This document shows positions 5,188 to 49,690 of a DNA stretch of 50,075 bases, piece by piece. Made by a program: the position numbers and the translations under genes. The notes under the pieces were generated by a model. It saw only the letters and a program-made list of their open reading frames with translations, searched no databases and was not told the DNA's origin. Numbering within the stretch: position 1 is the stretch's first letter; the number at the start of each line of letters is the position of its first letter. The DNA comes from Bacteroidales bacterium. GTDB lineage: Bacteria > Bacteroidota > Bacteroidia > Bacteroidales > UBA932. Location: NCBI GenBank assembly GCA_017465225.1, contig JAFTWQ010000023.1, forward strand, positions 1-50,075. The letters run 5' to 3'.

Positions 5188-7137
5188 TCAGAGAGTTTCG
5201 ATCACGACTCCGCCGTTGCAAGGGATTTCAAGATCGAAGCGACGCTTCTTATTGACCTTGATTTCAGATGCCGAACCATTGAGTCCGGCATCATCTGTAT
5301 ACAGACGTACCCTATCGCCGGCATTGAACATAGGAAGCTCGAGCTTCACCTTTACAGTCTCCTTCTGCGCATTGATTCCGACAACAAACCACTTGTCTGC
5401 ATGACGGCGCGCCATGATGACGTATTTTCCAGGGTATCCGTCGATGAAGCGGACCTCATCCCAAAGAGTAGGAACATTCTTCATGAAATCGATGGCCCAT
5501 GCGGGAGCATCAGTCAGGTTGTTCGGAGCGAGCGCGAAATGCTGTACCGGACTCTGGAACATGACCGCAGTCGCAAGGGCAAAAACATCAGATGTGCGTC
5601 GTACGCTTCCTCTCGGAGCATTGTCAGCGTTGTAATACTTGTTCAGGGCACTGCCGCCGAAGTCCATGCTTCCGACAGTATTGCGGATGAACGGATGGAT
5701 ACATGCGTTGAAGGCCTCGTTATCGCAGGCTCCCTGCGAGAAATGCAGGTTTTCACTGGCAAGCACAGCCTCGCTTGAAGCATAGTTAGGATACATCCTT
5801 TCCCAGCCACGTGGCAATGTACATCCATGGAAGACGCAGAGAATGCCATAATCGTTGGCATCTGCGAGGATGTCCTCATAGAGCTTCATGGTCTCCTGCT
5901 TGTCACCGCCGAAGAAATCGACCTTGATTCCCCTGATGCCGATGCTCTGCATCCATTTCATCTCGCGGCGGCGGGCGATAGTATTATCCATGATACCCTT
6001 CGGGCCCTGAGGGGCATGATTCCAGTAACCGTTAGAGTTATACCACAGATAAAGGGCTACGCCTTTGCCTGCAGCGTATTCAGCAAGCTCTGCAATCCTG
6101 TCTCTGCCGATCTGGGTGTCCCAAAGTGCATCGACGAGAACAGTCCTGTATCCCATTTCTGCTGTGAAATCGATATATCTCTTCTGCTCGTCATAATTAG
6201 TGCTCGGATCCATTCCGATGATCCAGCTCCATGATCCCGGTCCATAGACATACTCCTTGGATGCCTCATACAAAGGCTCCACAAGGTCGAACGGAACGGT
6301 AGTCTCCATGATCGGAGCGAGTGAATTTCCAAGAGTGATGGTACGCCAAGGAGTCATGCCAGGCAATGGTATTCCCGGCGCAGCAGAACCGTTACCGTTA
6401 TTCTCGCCTTCCTGCGGGTATCCGATGGTATAGAGTCCGTCTGGCTCTCCCATAAGGCGGCTTGCGCAATATGCGCTGCTTACACCGGTCTCAGATATAA
6501 GGATCCACCCCTTGTCCTCGTTCCTGAAAAGGCATGGGAATGTATAGCCTTCTCCCCAGCCGTTCTTTCCGACAGGTTCGTCAAGGCTGTAGCCTGTCTC
6601 ATAGCTAGGATATGTACCGGCAAATCCGCCGCCCGGCTTTACCTGCGGGCAGAGGAATGCAGTTGCCGTCTGCGGAAGCTGGAATCCGGTAGCTTCGCTG
6701 AAGATCACACATGAAAGTGTGTTTCTGCGCGGGTACAACCTGTATCTGAAAGCGACGTCACGGTCTGAAACACGGAAGATCACATCATAGACAGGTCTCT
6801 CATCCTTTGCGAATGTGAATACGGCCTCGACTGCCTTGTAGTCGACCTGGCTCTGCTTGATGGTCTTCAGGCTGTATTGTTCCTCAATAAGTCTTGGAGC
6901 CTCTTTTTCCGGAAGCATGGTCATGCCTGACATATACTCACCCATGCTTGTATTGAGTCCGAGAGGAGACGGAAGAATGAATACGTTTCCGTCATATGTC
7001 ACGCTATAGTCTGGAGTCCCGTCCGAATCAGAAACGGTCACCTCTATCCTACCGTCCGGGCTGGAGAATTTCCTGTCTTCCGCCACAGCATTAAAAGCGA
7101 TCATCAGGCCGATCAAGCCAAAGAATACCTTTTTCAT
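5188..7137 (-). CDS. Glycoside hydrolase family 97 (likely retaining alpha-galactosidase type)
   Basis: The secreted 649-residue protein has the GH97 layout: a signal peptide (MKKVFFGLIGLMIAFNAVA), an N-terminal beta-sandwich, a TIM barrel from about residue 290, and a C-terminal beta domain ending in CNGGVVIETL. An Asp in the barrel motif IKVDFFGG (Asp407) fits the nucleophile of retaining GH97 enzymes such as alpha-galactosidases and beta-L-arabinopyranosidases. Inverting SusB-like alpha-glucosidases use glutamates instead. That mechanistic reading comes from memory of the family. An upstream in-frame ATG at 7146 adds three residues, but MKKV at 7137 gives a standard signal peptide. Context among xylan enzymes favours a side-chain-trimming role. 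Confidence 0.88.
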   Translation of the reverse strand: MKKVFFGLIGLMIAFNAVAEDRKFSSPDGRIEVTVSDSDGTPDYSVTYDGNVFILPSPLGLNTSMGEYMSGMTMLPEKEAPRLIEEQYSLKTIKQSQVDYKAVEAVFTFAKDERPVYDVIFRVSDRDVAFRYRLYPRRNTLSCVIFSEATGFQLPQTATAFLCPQVKPGGGFAGTYPSYETGYSLDEPVGKNGWGEGYTFPCLFRNEDKGWILISETGVSSAYCASRLMGEPDGLYTIGYPQEGENNGNGSAAPGIPLPGMTPWRTITLGNSLAPIMETTVPFDLVEPLYEASKEYVYGPGSWSWIIGMDPSTNYDEQKRYIDFTAEMGYRTVLVDALWDTQIGRDRIAELAEYAAGKGVALYLWYNSNGYWNHAPQGPKGIMDNTIARRREMKWMQSIGIRGIKVDFFGGDKQETMKLYEDILADANDYGILCVFHGCTLPRGWERMYPNYASSEAVLASENLHFSQGACDNEAFNACIHPFIRNTVGSMDFGGSALNKYYNADNAPRGSVRRTSDVFALATAVMFQSPVQHFALAPNNLTDAPAWAIDFMKNVPTLWDEVRFIDGYPGKYVIMARRHADKWFVVGINAQKETVKVKLELPMFNAGDRVRLYTDDAGLNGSASEIKVNKKRRFDLEIPCNGGVVIETL

Positions 7138-7161
7138 AGCAAACAATATTATCTTGTATTA

Positions 7162-7169
7162 CAAAGATA
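7162..7169 (-). promoter_or_regulatory. -7 promoter element of the GH97 gene
   Basis: The minus strand reads TATCTTTG, matching TAnnTTTG, 24 bases upstream of the chosen GH97 start. It gives GH97 its own promoter, separate from the cupin gene that ends at 7257. Confidence 0.55.
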
Positions 7170-7256
7170 AATATTTATTTCACCATGAAAAGTCATGAAT
7201 GGGCCAATCCCATACGATGTTCAATTATTGCAAGATTATGATTGAAATCTACAAGT

Positions 7257-7592
7257 TCAGCATTGGCAGACTGTAGCAAGGAAGATGAGATCCTCTGCAG
7301 AATCAGCAGGATTCATGAGACTGTGCGAGCAGCCTTTCGGACAATAGAGGCAATCCCCCGGAATGACCTTGTTCTCCTTGCCATCCTCAAGGAGAAAACC
7401 TTCTCCGCTCACGACATGAATGACCTCGCAGCTGTCTTCATGGGTATGGAAGCCGATAGATGCGCCCGGAACCAGGCAGCCACGGAAAATACGGTTGGTG
7501 CCGTCGAAGAACATATTGGCGGCCAGTTCCTTCTCCCCTCCCTTGAATTCAGGAAGATGGACCATAGGGATCTCGTCAAATTTAAGTATCAT
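7257..7592 (-). CDS. Small cupin-domain protein
   Basis: This 111-residue protein is a single-domain cupin. The first cupin motif is GASIGFHTHEDSCEVIHVVSGEG, with the histidines and glutamate that would hold a metal. The second is IPGDCLYCPKGCSHSLMNPAD. There is no signal peptide, so it is probably cytoplasmic. Such proteins bind small ligands or act as isomerases or dioxygenases; the substrate cannot be told. It follows the FKBP gene by five bases and is likely cotranscribed with it from the promoter at 8022-8029. Confidence 0.85.
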   Translation of the reverse strand: MILKFDEIPMVHLPEFKGGEKELAANMFFDGTNRIFRGCLVPGASIGFHTHEDSCEVIHVVSGEGFLLEDGKENKVIPGDCLYCPKGCSHSLMNPADSAEDLIFLATVCQC

Positions 7593-7597
7593 GTTTG

Positions 7598-8002
7598 TCA
7601 GCGTATATCAAGAAGGGTTATATCGAATATGAGTGTAGAGAATGCCTTGATGGCACCGGCAGGACGTGAGCCATATCCCAGATTGTACGGAATCACGATC
7701 TCCCATCTTGAACCGCACGGCATCTCCCTCAAGGCTGTGATCCAGCCGGTTATGAGTTCATTGAGACGGAAAGTCGCCGGCCTGCCTTTCTGGGTCTGGT
7801 CGAAGACCTTGCCGTTGATCAGCTTGCCGACATAATGTACTGTCACGAAGCTTTTCGGAGAGGGCTTGGGACCGTTTCCCTTGGATAGTTCGCGGTACAT
7901 GACTCCGTTGAACATTATCTTCACGCCAGGCTTCTGGGCATATTCCTGAAGGAACTCCTGATTCCTTAACTTATAGGCATTATCTACAGATGGCATATTC
8001 AA
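7598..8002 (-). CDS. FKBP-type peptidyl-prolyl cis-trans isomerase
   Basis: The 134-residue product carries one FKBP domain at about residues 45-134. Typical segments are VTVHYVGKLINGKVFDQT, the substrate-pocket stretch ITGWITALREMPCGSRWEIVIP and NLGYGSRPAGAI. It catalyses proline cis-trans isomerisation in protein folding. No signal peptide or lipobox is seen, so it is probably cytoplasmic, unlike the many exported FKBPs of this phylum. The start could be Met1 or Met3, six bases apart. It heads a two-gene operon with the cupin gene. Confidence 0.92.
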   Translation of the reverse strand: MNMPSVDNAYKLRNQEFLQEYAQKPGVKIMFNGVMYRELSKGNGPKPSPKSFVTVHYVGKLINGKVFDQTQKGRPATFRLNELITGWITALREMPCGSRWEIVIPYNLGYGSRPAGAIKAFSTLIFDITLLDIR

Positions 8003-38677: not shown

Positions 38678-38724
38678 GCAGCGCCGCACCCAGCAACCGC
38701 CTGACAATCAACATATTAGAAAAG

Positions 38725-38752
38725 CCTCCTGCTCCCTTTGGACGGCAGGAGG
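38725..38752 (+). terminator. Hairpin terminator after the ABC exporter
   Basis: CCTCCTGC (38725-38732) pairs with GCAGGAGG (38745-38752) around a 12-base loop. A short T stretch follows (GGTTTC). It lies 47 bases after the ABC stop codon and before the fusion gene at 38798. Confidence 0.65.
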
Positions 38753-38797
38753 TTTCAATAAAAGATTAGTAATCAACAACTTACAAGATACGGTTAT

Positions 38798-40132
38798 ATG
38801 GCAAAGATATATGTAGCAAGCAGCTGGAGGAATCAGTATTACCCGGAAGTGGTAAATAAGCTCCGTGAAGCAGGGCATGAAGTATATGATTTCCGAAATC
38901 CGCCTCATGGACAGGGCGGGTTCAAATGGCAGAATCTGGATCCGGATTTTACCAGATGGGACGTGAATGAATACAAGCAGGGTCTGAAGCATCCGTCTTC
39001 AGAACTGCAGTTCAATACAGATCTCGACGCATTGAATTGGGCAGACACATGCCTGCTGGTGCTCCCATGCGGCCGAAGCGCACATACCGAAGCCGGCTGG
39101 ATGAAAGGTTCCGGCAAACGCACGATCGTCTATATCCCCGAAATGCAGGAACCGGAGCTAATGTACAAGCTCTTTGACCTCGTCAGCGGAGATATGGAGG
39201 AAGTTTTATGGTATTTGAAATATGGTGAGCCATACTCGGGTGATTCGAGATTTGTTGCAAAGTGCAGATTGCTGCAATCCATATATAGAGAAGAGTCCGG
39301 CCTGGCAATAAAGCCATACAAAGGTCGCGATGGAGTCCATTATTATGGAAATTATATTGAAAACGGAGAAATCACCGGAGCGAACTTTCTTGAAGAGTAT
39401 ATATTTGACTATGCAAATAAACGTGTCAGAAACAAGAAGAATTATGAAACCATCGAATCTGACAGACTCTTCAACAATCTCCTTTCAAGTCAGCCTATGG
39501 CTTTCAACCTTTTCTATCCATTGATGAAAATGCTGAAAGAATCACCGGCTGAAGCAACAATGGCAATCAGAAAAGCACTGCCTATGTTCCCGATTCATAA
39601 AGTGACTGAAATAGACCTGGAATTCATACCTGAAAATTACATGGACCTTACAGGTGACAAGAGCGCCATGGATGCCATCATCAGATTTGAATCAGCAGGT
39701 GGTAAGAGGGCGTTCATAGCTATTGAAACCAAGTATTCAGAAAATCTTGGCAGCAATGAAGCTTCAGACAAGAGCAAGACGATTGAAAAAATAAAGCAGT
39801 TGAAATGCTTCAGGCCTGACATCGAGGAAAGGATCAACGACATAAAACTCACCCAGATCTATAGGAATTTCCTTTTGAGCGAATGTTACGGGAAAAAGAT
39901 TGACGCTGAATCATATTCGATAGTTCTTGCGCCAATGGATCATACTTCTACGGATAAAGAAGTCAAATCTCTTACTGATGAACTGCGCGAAGAATATCGC
40001 GGAAGAATTCAACCTGTCGCACTGGAGGATTTCGTAAACGCCCTTATATCGAATTCTGATGGAGAATATAAAGCAGTATTCCAGAAGTTCTACGACAGGT
40101 ATCTGAATTTTGCCAAAAACTATAGCAGATAG
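38798..40132 (+). CDS. Deoxyribosyltransferase-like domain fused to PD-(D/E)XK nuclease domain
   Basis: The 444-residue protein joins two domains. Residues 1-140 resemble nucleoside 2-deoxyribosyltransferase-like proteins: IYVASSWRN at the start, WADTCLLVLPCGRSAHTEAGW in the middle, with Glu98 at the nucleophile position. Residues about 150-444 look like the PGN_0703-type restriction-endonuclease fold, with Asp292 (MDAIIRF), Glu310-x-Lys312 (IAIETKYSE) and a following Gln353. The second half is visibly more AT-rich than the first and than neighbouring genes, suggesting it was acquired separately. It stands alone between two terminators. A nucleotide-sensing nuclease for phage defence is one idea; base salvage plus an unrelated domain is another. 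Confidence 0.75.
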   Translation: MAKIYVASSWRNQYYPEVVNKLREAGHEVYDFRNPPHGQGGFKWQNLDPDFTRWDVNEYKQGLKHPSSELQFNTDLDALNWADTCLLVLPCGRSAHTEAGWMKGSGKRTIVYIPEMQEPELMYKLFDLVSGDMEEVLWYLKYGEPYSGDSRFVAKCRLLQSIYREESGLAIKPYKGRDGVHYYGNYIENGEITGANFLEEYIFDYANKRVRNKKNYETIESDRLFNNLLSSQPMAFNLFYPLMKMLKESPAEATMAIRKALPMFPIHKVTEIDLEFIPENYMDLTGDKSAMDAIIRFESAGGKRAFIAIETKYSENLGSNEASDKSKTIEKIKQLKCFRPDIEERINDIKLTQIYRNFLLSECYGKKIDAESYSIVLAPMDHTSTDKEVKSLTDELREEYRGRIQPVALEDFVNALISNSDGEYKAVFQKFYDRYLNFAKNYSR

Positions 40133-40189
40133 TATTTGACGGCATAATGCCGTGGAGCACAAAACCCTGACCACCAAGCAATTAAAGAT

Positions 40190-40221
40190 ACCCACGTGCT
40201 GTCCAAGGGGAGCACGTGGGT
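40190..40221. terminator. Strong bidirectional hairpin terminator
   Basis: ACCCACGTGCT (40190-40200) and AGCACGTGGGT (40211-40221) form a perfect 11-base-pair stem with a ten-base loop. It lies between two convergent genes, the fusion protein (plus) and the nucleoside kinase (minus), and probably ends both transcripts. Confidence 0.75.
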
Positions 40222-40268
40222 AATAGTATATTGCTGATAGTCAATCTATTAAGCTCCACAGCCGAACA

Positions 40269-44414: not shown

Positions 44415-45527
44415 ATGAAATACACTGAAATCGAAAACTGCGAGGCCTTGAGAATCGCCCTCGAAGCAGGAGGAACATTGAGACATTATGCCTTCCAGGG
44501 CATTGACTTCAACAAGTGCATGGACATGGCAATGCAATGCCGTTTCTCGGACTGCCTTTTCCTTGGCGGTTTCGGAGTCGACAATCTGAGGGACAGGATG
44601 GACGATTCGTGCTCGATCTTCCCCCGTTTCCAGGGACTGCCTTTCAGGGCGTTCCGAAGCGGTCTCTACAGCGCTAAATCGTTGTATGAAGGTTACCGTC
44701 CAGGAGATCCCGATTCATACAAGGACTGCTACGACAGCAAGGTCTATGAGCATTATCTGAAGGCCGGAAAGCAGACCGGAGACATCAAGGAGACCCTTGC
44801 CCGCATTCTTCATGACCATTCGATGAATGACGGCCTTGACGATTTCCTCCGCTCATTCGATGAAAAGAGCATCGTCGGCATAATGGGAGGCCACGGTCTT
44901 TCGCGTTGCGACGAAAGCTACAGGAAGGTCGTGCTGGTGAGCAAGAAGCTGACCGAAGGAGGAAGCCTGATGGTCAGCGGCGGAGGTCCCGGAGCCATGG
45001 AGGCCACACACCTCGGCGCATGGATGGCAGGACGCACGGAAGCCGAAGTGGACGAGGCTCTGGCCATACTCTCTGCTGCTCCGTCATACAAGGACAGGCT
45101 CTGGCTCGACACAGCATTCCAGGTTCTGGAAAAGTTCCCGACTTCGGAATATGTCAGCCTCGGAGTGCCGACATGGCTTTACGGCCATGAGCCGGCAACC
45201 CCATTCGCGACCCATATCGCAAAATACTTCGACAACAGCACACGCGAGGACACGATCCTCACAATCGCCAAAGGAGGCGTGGTCTACTCTCCGGGCAGCG
45301 CCGGCACAATGCAGGAGATATTCCAGGATGCTGTCCAGAACCATTACTTGAGCTTCGGCTATGCCAGTCCTATGGTCTTCCTTGACACAGAATACTGGAC
45401 AGAAGAGATGCCGGTCTACAAGCTCATGCAGTACCTTGTCGACAAAGGCAAATACAACAACCTCCTGCTGTCCATAACCGATTCCATCGACGACATCGTC
45501 AGAACTCTCGAAGATTTCCGCAGATAG
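44415..45527 (+). CDS. LOG-family nucleotide phosphoribohydrolase-like protein
   Basis: The 370-residue protein has a Rossmann-like domain with IMGGHGLSR, SGGGPGAMEATHLGAWMAG and SPGSAGTMQEIFQD. These correspond to the lysine-decarboxylase-like/LOG motifs (the usual GGGxGTxxE is here PGSAGTMQE). Related proteins such as PpnN cleave nucleoside monophosphates to base and ribose phosphate. An N-terminal extension of about 140 residues is of unknown role. It is cotranscribed with the aldo-keto reductase and probably ends at the hairpin starting at 45546. Confidence 0.8.
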   Translation: MKYTEIENCEALRIALEAGGTLRHYAFQGIDFNKCMDMAMQCRFSDCLFLGGFGVDNLRDRMDDSCSIFPRFQGLPFRAFRSGLYSAKSLYEGYRPGDPDSYKDCYDSKVYEHYLKAGKQTGDIKETLARILHDHSMNDGLDDFLRSFDEKSIVGIMGGHGLSRCDESYRKVVLVSKKLTEGGSLMVSGGGPGAMEATHLGAWMAGRTEAEVDEALAILSAAPSYKDRLWLDTAFQVLEKFPTSEYVSLGVPTWLYGHEPATPFATHIAKYFDNSTREDTILTIAKGGVVYSPGSAGTMQEIFQDAVQNHYLSFGYASPMVFLDTEYWTEEMPVYKLMQYLVDKGKYNNLLLSITDSIDDIVRTLEDFRR

Positions 45528-48909: not shown

Positions 48910-49690
48910 AGTTCATTACGTATTAGTTCTTGATTCCCCCATCGGTCCTTGGCGCTGAAATGCGATTTGTCAATAAGAACTGATTTTCCGTGATATATAA
49001 CATATCATCCAACGATTGTATCGTTCTTGAAATCAGCATATCTGAAACTGAGATTCTTGGCAAGACTATTATATCTCATAGACTTGTCTGACATATTGGC
49101 ATCTAAATCCAAGACTATTATTCGACAGGTTTGCTTTATACCTTTACTAAAACCGCTTGACACTCCGTCTTCTCCTTTTAATGCCCTTTCGATCTGCAGT
49201 AAGTCCGTTAATTTCATATTCTGGATTCTTTTTATAATCTTTCAAGATATGAGGTGCAATCTTCATCTTCATATCCGGGAAGGAATCAAGCAGTACCTTT
49301 GCAGCCCTCGTATTTGCTTCTATCTCTGACTTGTCAGCGCAAACACTGACAAGGAGTCTGTCGCCATATTCTTTGTCAGGAGTGAACCTTTCAACAATAG
49401 CACAGTTGCGCACCATCTGGCACGCCGCACAGAGTTCGTTGTCGGTGACTCCGGATGCGAGGTTGAGCTTTGCAAGGTCACAGGTTGTACATCTGCTGAT
49501 AGTGTACGGGTTGTGAGCCGGGAAGGATGAGCCGGTCTTTCCTGGATTGAAGCGGAACATCTTCTGCTTGTCGGTCTGGAGGACCTGCTGCCCTCTCTCC
49601 ATAGCTTCGTTGTGAGGAGTCTGCTCATAGCGTGACTTGAGAACCTGAACTGGGGTGTGTGGGGATGAGTCTTGAGGACTTTGAACGATG
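48900..49690 (-). pseudogene. Broken phage MuF-like protein with toxin-like C-terminal tail
   Basis: A minus-strand protein can be followed for about 260 residues in three pieces. The first (to about 49180) includes TPHNEAMERGQQVLQTDK, a Cys-x-x-Cys pair (CTTCDLA, CAACQMVRNC) and NPEYEINGLTADRKGIK. A one-base frameshift at AAAA near 49180 joins it to GEDGVSSGFSKGIKQ...DFKNDTIVG. A TGA at 49005-49007 interrupts, then the same frame goes on with YVIYHGKSVLIDKSHFSAKD to TAG at 48900. The tail recalls the nuclease-toxin domains at the end of phage head-morphogenesis (MuF) proteins. Family naming is tentative; the breakage is directly visible. Confidence 0.55.

Follow-up and report, generated by a model that had tools for sequence, protein, structure and literature searches.

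Joining of a deoxyribosyltransferase-like domain to a PD-(D/E)XK nuclease in a rare Bacteroidales protein, a candidate single-gene conflict effector

What might be the role of a protein that joins, in a single open frame, a domain resembling enzymes of nucleotide metabolism and a domain resembling restriction nucleases? The question is raised by a gene in the window, by which we mean the whole stretch of 50,075 nucleotides analysed here (contig JAFTWQ010000023.1 of the Bacteroidales assembly GCA_017465225.1). The gene occupies positions 38798..40132 of the plus strand, starts with ATG, is intact, encodes 444 amino acids, and has a full-length relative (L002/L075). An initial annotation, made from the sequence alone, had given these coordinates and this length, both of which we confirmed, and had suggested that the gene may be a single-gene defence system.

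The N domain (residues 1–140; 38798..39217, plus strand) has a predicted N-glycosidase fold of the NDT/MilB/DNPH1 type. It matches the phage family PHROG 12607, named ‘nucleoside deoxyribosyltransferase’, with an E-value of 1.7e-57 over positions 1–140 of a 145-position profile; we found no literature report of the substrate of this family. The N half falls outside the Pfam families of nucleoside 2-deoxyribosyltransferases because its scores are under the curated cut-offs, with 16.0 bits for PF05014 (cut-off 28.8) and 17.1 bits for PF15891 (cut-off 30). Its AlphaFold model, made from 32 alignment rows, has a pLDDT of 93.3 and a pTM of 0.87. Foldseek retrieves 18 PDB matches with E ≤ 0.001: deoxyribosyltransferases (including the best match, NDT 6evs, E = 1.7e-6, and 7o62), CMP N-glycosidases (BcmB, E = 4.1e-5, and MilB, E = 1.5e-4), YtoQ, and one conserved protein (7m5h). 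DNPH1 with hmdUMP is a weaker match (E = 4.5e-3). The deoxyribosyltransferase-type fold proposed initially is thus borne out by the structure prediction and the matches in the PDB.

The predicted catalytic nucleophile of this domain is Glu98 (codon at 39089..39091, plus strand), located in GRSAHTEAG exactly where the initial annotation had placed it. In the profile search, SAHTE98AGW aligns with the GTHVEIGW stretch of MilB and BcmB, so that Glu98 corresponds to Glu103 of MilB; the E-values of the MilB/BcmB-type profile matches are only 0.01–0.25, and the best profile match is 6evs (0.00067). Excerpts of the study of MilB (PMC4081090) describe the E103A mutant as catalytically inactive, Asp78 as binding the ribose and the base, and a cage formed by Phe22-Arg23. 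In our alignment, all 32 N-half rows have W10, R11, D75, G92, S94, and E98, and H96 of the active-site stretch is kept in just 24. Following our own reading of the residue numbering, D75 would be the equivalent of MilB Asp78. Trp10-Arg11, just past strand 1, could be the counterpart of the Phe22-Arg23 cage. With D75 read in this way, the N half has both the predicted fold and the catalytic Glu and sugar-binding Asp of the NDT/DrHyd-type superfamily. We predict that it cleaves or binds the N-glycosidic bond of a small nucleotide, either a nucleoside monophosphate or NAD/ADP-ribose. It shares its fold and the stretch around Glu98 with MilB and BcmB (CMP and hydroxymethyl-CMP N-glycosidases) and with DNPH1, but it is about 15% identical to these enzymes, for which no nuclease domain is reported in the literature examined.

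The C domain (residues 148–436; 39239..40105, plus strand) can be assigned to the PDDEXK_13/REase-ARP nucleases, with scores far above both Pfam cut-offs: 226.3 bits for PF20796 (PDDEXK_13; cut-off 27, E = 6.6e-67, profile positions 2–289 of 290) and, over residues 158–436, 139.2 bits for PF22558 (REase-ARP; cut-off 27, E = 2.5e-40). Its D ... E-x-K motif is intact and made of Asp292 (codon at 39671..39673, plus strand) and Glu310-Thr311-Lys312 (39725..39733, plus strand). D292, E310, and K312 are kept in all 16 aligned sequences (the window's own included), and so are E275, D287 (39656-39658, plus strand), Q353, and R356. The initial annotation had picked the right motif residues, and its PD-(D/E)XK domain now has a family. 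The AlphaFold model of this half, made from six rows, has a pLDDT of 75 and matches no PDB entry at E ≤ 0.001; SduA, Avs3, BstEII, EcoO109I, and MspJI are among its highest, though weak, structural matches, mixed with unrelated folds. The family assignment is therefore based on Pfam and the motif. The two halves were folded separately, as one alignment (A3) had misplaced C-only rows onto the N half. A sequence search of the PDB with the single protein gave no match, and the one match of a profile search with the C half was judged to be due to chance. We predict that the C domain cuts nucleic acid. Its aligned relatives are lone proteins of about 300–360 residues, whereas the nuclease of the fusion carries an N-terminal nucleotide-enzyme domain.

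Several features of the site give the gene the look of a transferred cassette, as the initial annotation had supposed. Its N half has a GC content of 0.495 (GC3 0.557) and its C half of 0.402 (GC3 0.428). Compared with 28 other ORFs of the window that we picked (mean GC 0.495, sd 0.023, minimum 0.453), the C half is an AT-rich outlier, as had been noticed from the sequence, and the N half is not. The stretch 38683..40268 has no counterpart at the matching site of a close relative (G416), where the genes of the ABC transporter and the PRK-family protein are directly adjacent, separated by about 160 bp, and encode proteins 92% and 95% identical to those flanking the fusion. G416 carries a lone N gene on another contig. 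Since its site is empty, the fusion gene was either gained in the lineage of the window or lost in that of G416.

The intergenic gaps around the fusion gene, of 120 bp (left) and 136 bp (right), each contain a strong hairpin. One lies 3' of the ABC transporter gene (38722..38755, plus strand; minimum free energy of −20.5 kcal/mol for 38715-38775, z = −3.05, equally good in 3 of 200 shuffles), and the other between the fusion gene and the convergent PRK/uridine-kinase-family gene (40189..40222; −31.5 kcal/mol for 40175-40240, z = −7.0, equally good in none of 200 shuffles). We call them only terminator-like because they lack clear U-tracts, and a scan for consensus terminators with loops of 3–8 found none in either gap. 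Of the initial claim that the gene is isolated between two terminators, the hairpins thus stand and the status of terminators is unproven. At the empty site of G416 (L185, 1340-1497), the two neighbouring genes share one hairpin; in the window, as judged by eye, each has its own, with similar loops. Recombination between such similar hairpins might have been the route of entry of the fusion gene.

We found the full fusion in just two genomes, which belong to different genera of one family and encode proteins 73–74% identical over residues 1–440. The second genome is represented by a single record (L002, L075, and G600 are taken to be the same; G600 and L002 share contig coordinates). Searches with the whole protein gave matches in 24 of 393 genomes of the order, 62 of 200 of the genus, and 94 of 398 of the family (these sets overlap). 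Only in the window genome and in G600 does the match extend over residues 1–440; elsewhere it is confined to one half or to part of one. Of the 62 genomes of the genus with a match, 58 have only the N half, whole or in part, 3 have only the C half, whole or in part, and 1 is that of the window, with its fusion. A profile of the C half has matches in 7 of 295 genomes of the class. Profile scans of viral contigs identified 278 relatives of the N family, of which 80 were kept, and 3 of the C family; scanning them with the whole protein gave nothing, a search that was insensitive given the 278 relatives later revealed by the N-family profile. The fusion is absent from the 80 viral loci kept, and among the matching records of phages (22) and plasmids (14), no single place spans 80% of the protein.

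We examined 138 loci encoding the N domain: 119 lack a C-terminal extension of more than 40 residues and 19 have one. Among the latter, the nuclease is present only in the window (L001) and in L002/L075, the others being judged by eye, and in this the fusion differs from nearly all of these loci with a domain of the PHROG 12607 type. The comparison of the full-length fusion with each half, proposed in the initial annotation, thus recovers the fusion in a second genus and finds each half mostly alone. In the match tables of the order, the genus, and the family, no genome has the two halves as separate genes, so that the fusion is not the condensed form of a common operon.

The phylogenies bear on how the fusion arose. 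The N-domain tree places the two fusions (window and L002) with six lone N genes in a supported group of eight members (100/97). In the C-domain tree, the window and L002 are linked to each other by the shortest path, which is not strongly supported. The two fusions are each other's nearest rows in both trees, the pairing itself not being well supported. These topologies would fit an origin by one fusion, in which a lone N gene of this family was joined to a lone nuclease. Between the window and L002, dN is 0.11 in the N half and 0.22 in the C half, and dS was not computable, which we read as saturation. The two genes are 71% identical in DNA, keep the frame open and both predicted active sites, and have linkers differing in length by 8 residues. 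Both halves appear to be constrained across the two genera. The neighbours of the L002 fusion are, by eye, other than those in the window.

If the fusion is part of a defence repertoire, is this visible in its neighbourhood? The neighbours in the window are of housekeeping type: an ABC transporter, the PRK/uridine-kinase-family gene, a fumarase-type lyase, and TauE. None of the ten window proteins scanned is an ARG, a phosphatase, an ARPP, or a reverse transcriptase, and no mobile-element gene was found beside the fusion, either among these ten proteins or, by eye, in L002. The fusion protein matches no family of PADLOC 2.0.0 (5027 models) at E ≤ 1 and has no match in NCBIfam. Two other window proteins lack Pfam matches. 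One, of 370 residues (44415-45527), has none at 1e-5 and contains glycine-rich stretches that we take to be LOG/SLOG-like. The other is an ORF of 151 residues with a basic tail (49147-49602, minus strand).

We therefore turn to the contexts in which each half occurs alone. Profile-confirmed R-M or defence genes are neighbours of the lone nuclease in 5 of 21 loci, and the other 16 have no confirmed defence neighbour, as judged by eye; this uncontrolled count leaves out three loci on short contigs (L042, L049, L051), weak matches (L031-L038, L267, L268), a locus at a contig end (L003/L057), and fragments. In L271, a lone PDDEXK_13-type nuclease (7034-7879) is encoded within a type I R-M operon, with R on one side and M and S on the other. 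The locus L048 is DISARM-like (DrmMI, 6.8e-226), and the helicase adjoining its nuclease matches DpdE (2.6e-152) better than DrmD (6.6e-83). Other lone nucleases neighbour GmrSD_N, PLD, and Macro (L269), GmrSD (L055), or a D12 methylase (L279). The PDDEXK_13-type nuclease of L048 (8262-9230) lies between the helicase gene and a Schlafen-type gene (AlbA_2, by eye) and has no PADLOC match of its own; it is perhaps an unlisted accessory nuclease of this DISARM-like locus.

Six plasmid records carry a relative of the nuclease, of which we opened five, the sixth looking like a near copy of one of them. On the Roseomonas plasmid (L216), an ADP-ribosylglycohydrolase and a phosphatase are two to three genes away from the nuclease, and there is also a UDG-family gene. 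The Pimelobacter plasmid (L219) has an ADP-ribosylglycohydrolase and ARPP-1 at about 3–5 kb, on the other strand, and the Nocardioides plasmid (L220) has TY-Chap2 directly upstream of the nuclease and, at a distance of about 4 kb, a gene annotated as drmC. The nucleases on the plasmids of Polaromonas (L218) and B. uniformis (L215) have no neighbours of the ARG, ARPP, or TY-Chap type. According to excerpts of Iyer et al. 2022 (PMC9503650), the components of ARG-centred systems include ARPP, TY-Chap proteins, and an REase that evolves rapidly. The plasmid contexts would fit these systems, and the Pfam name REase-ARP presumably derives from the association with ARG/ARPP. Relatives of the C domain are thus found in ARG/ARPP, DISARM-like, and R-M loci; ARG, phosphatase, or ARPP neighbours occur in L216 and L219, but not at the fusion.

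Lone N genes are mostly among genes without a recognised defence role. In 5 of the 32 loci listed, R-M or defence-type genes lie no more than three genes away: L006 (Dcm, by eye), L013 (TIR and Dcm), L046 (AAA_21), L221, and L225 (Mrr_cat). The listing gathers 12 of the 15 loci of one set (L005, L008, and L010 were left out) and all 20 of another, and holds duplicates (L014 and L226 are the same place, and so are L007 and L235). With PADLOC at E ≤ 1e-6, we found 34 families among 117 neighbours of 20 lone-N loci and 4 among 115 control neighbours about 30 kb away on the same contigs, counts of families rather than of distinct neighbours. Scanned singly, three of ten neighbours match PADLOC: one of PD-T4-1 type (L221) and two ATPases of PDC-S01 models (L229). 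The comparison points towards defence; because several models match one protein and only 3 of 10 neighbours matched singly, we do not claim an enrichment. Taken together, 5 of 21 lone nucleases and 5 of 32 lone N genes are near R-M or defence-type genes; most loci and the fusion have no recognised defence neighbour. When the 588 genes lying within four positions on either side of the N gene in the 80 viral loci were clustered, no partner was present in more than 7 loci, and no thymidylate synthase or hydroxymethylase was seen by eye in the 20 clusters shown.

Some lone N genes lie close to genes of DNA modification or restriction. On the Bacteroides fragilis plasmid pBFO17_1 (L214, 6001-7195), only 10 bp separate the N gene from the dcm cytosine methyltransferase gene that follows it, and the N genes of L006 (by eye) and L013 likewise adjoin Dcm-type genes. 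In L225 (5989-7286), an Mrr_cat restriction-endonuclease gene immediately precedes the N gene in the same orientation, and this is a two-gene version of a similar pairing.

Both parts of the fusion have precedents in published conflict systems. In excerpts of PMC12887533, an NDT-like anti-phage effector acts in Retron-Eco1. The fusion has a similar fold, but it lacks a PADLOC match and a reverse transcriptase among the ten scanned neighbours, and its domain is joined to a nuclease. For the AbiJ-NTD1 conflict module, a flavodoxin-fold NDT and an REase are partner domains given in the same row of Table 2 of PMC3710099; as presented there, they are joined to AbiJ-NTD1 in separate proteins and not to each other. 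In the excerpts of Iyer et al. (PMC9503650), the fast-evolving REase belongs to ARG/ARPP systems, and DrHyd, TIR, and SLOG domains are grouped together as nucleotide enzymes of conflict systems. DrHyd domains are described as signal-making or NAD-cleaving parts of such systems (excerpts of PMC9503650, PMC7159879, PMC8195603). We found no fusion of an NDT-like domain and a nuclease in print among open-licence PMC papers, which is weak evidence of absence. What seems new is thus the joining of known parts in one protein; the initial view that this coupling is undescribed as a defence type agrees with that search, but NDT-like anti-phage effectors were already known.

A conflict effector coupling nucleotide chemistry to nucleic-acid cleavage would be the most economical reading of these data. 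We give about even chances to the fusion being a rare single-gene effector of this kind, made of two known parts and moving as a one-gene cassette; we infer its defence role and mobility, both enzyme activities, the substrate, and the order of events. The N domain would cleave or bind the N-glycosidic bond of its small nucleotide, the fusion would couple a nucleotide cue of infection, or the depletion of that nucleotide, to cleavage, and the C domain would act on phage or plasmid DNA or shut the cell down. The domains and their motifs, the maintenance of the fusion in two genera, and the lone nucleases in conflict loci argue for a conflict effector. The absence of a PADLOC family, the housekeeping neighbours, the 16 lone-nuclease loci without confirmed defence neighbour, the lack of recognised defence genes at most lone-N loci, and the modest C-half model without PDB match argue against it. 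The single-gene defence system of the initial annotation finds support in the neighbours of some lone nucleases and none in those of the fusion. Since no defence gene lies beside the fusion and it is known from two genomes only, we propose its defence role as an inference; nor need the N family be a host defence domain, because it is abundant in phages. A narrower version, which we regard as improbable, is a restriction device consisting of this one protein and gated by the pool of nucleotides. Its MilB/DNPH1-like domain would recognise or hydrolyse modified pyrimidine nucleotides (e.g., hydroxymethylated dNMPs) or an ADP-ribose-type nucleotide met during infection, switching on the fused nuclease.

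The same observations can be read in other ways. The fusion could serve housekeeping sanitation, with a DNPH1-like N domain removing damaged or modified nucleotides and the nuclease trimming damaged DNA. The fold relatives (MilB and, more weakly, DNPH1 with hmdUMP), the housekeeping neighbours, and the often solitary chromosomal position of lone N genes (by eye) are in line with it; we find it unlikely in view of the patchy presence within the genus, the empty site between very similar flanking genes in G416, and the lone nucleases of R-M, DISARM-like, and ARG loci. We are similarly doubtful that the fusion is cargo serving a mobile element, in which a nuclease and an N domain of phage origin would together degrade host DNA and salvage the released nucleotides, or act in counter-defence. 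The N family is indeed abundant in viral contigs and occurs on phages and plasmids, the lone nuclease is on plasmids and in three viral contigs, and the site in the window looks like a one-gene insertion, but the phage, plasmid, and viral loci searched lack the fusion, and no element gene was recognised beside it in either genome. Finally, a nuclease may have come to lie behind a lone N gene by accident, without joint function. The fusion is rare, its linker varies in length, and its halves are common alone without being listed as separate genes in one genome; yet an open frame and two predicted active sites kept in two genera at such DNA divergence make this reading very unlikely.

If the protein were merely a rare fusion without joint role, the gain would be small. 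If the gated device were true, phage DNA precursors would be sensed instead of finished DNA. The joined protein makes the link between the N domain and the nuclease directly testable with two point mutants, and PHROG 12607, a family of phage-encoded enzymes, is now pointed to as a possible sensor.
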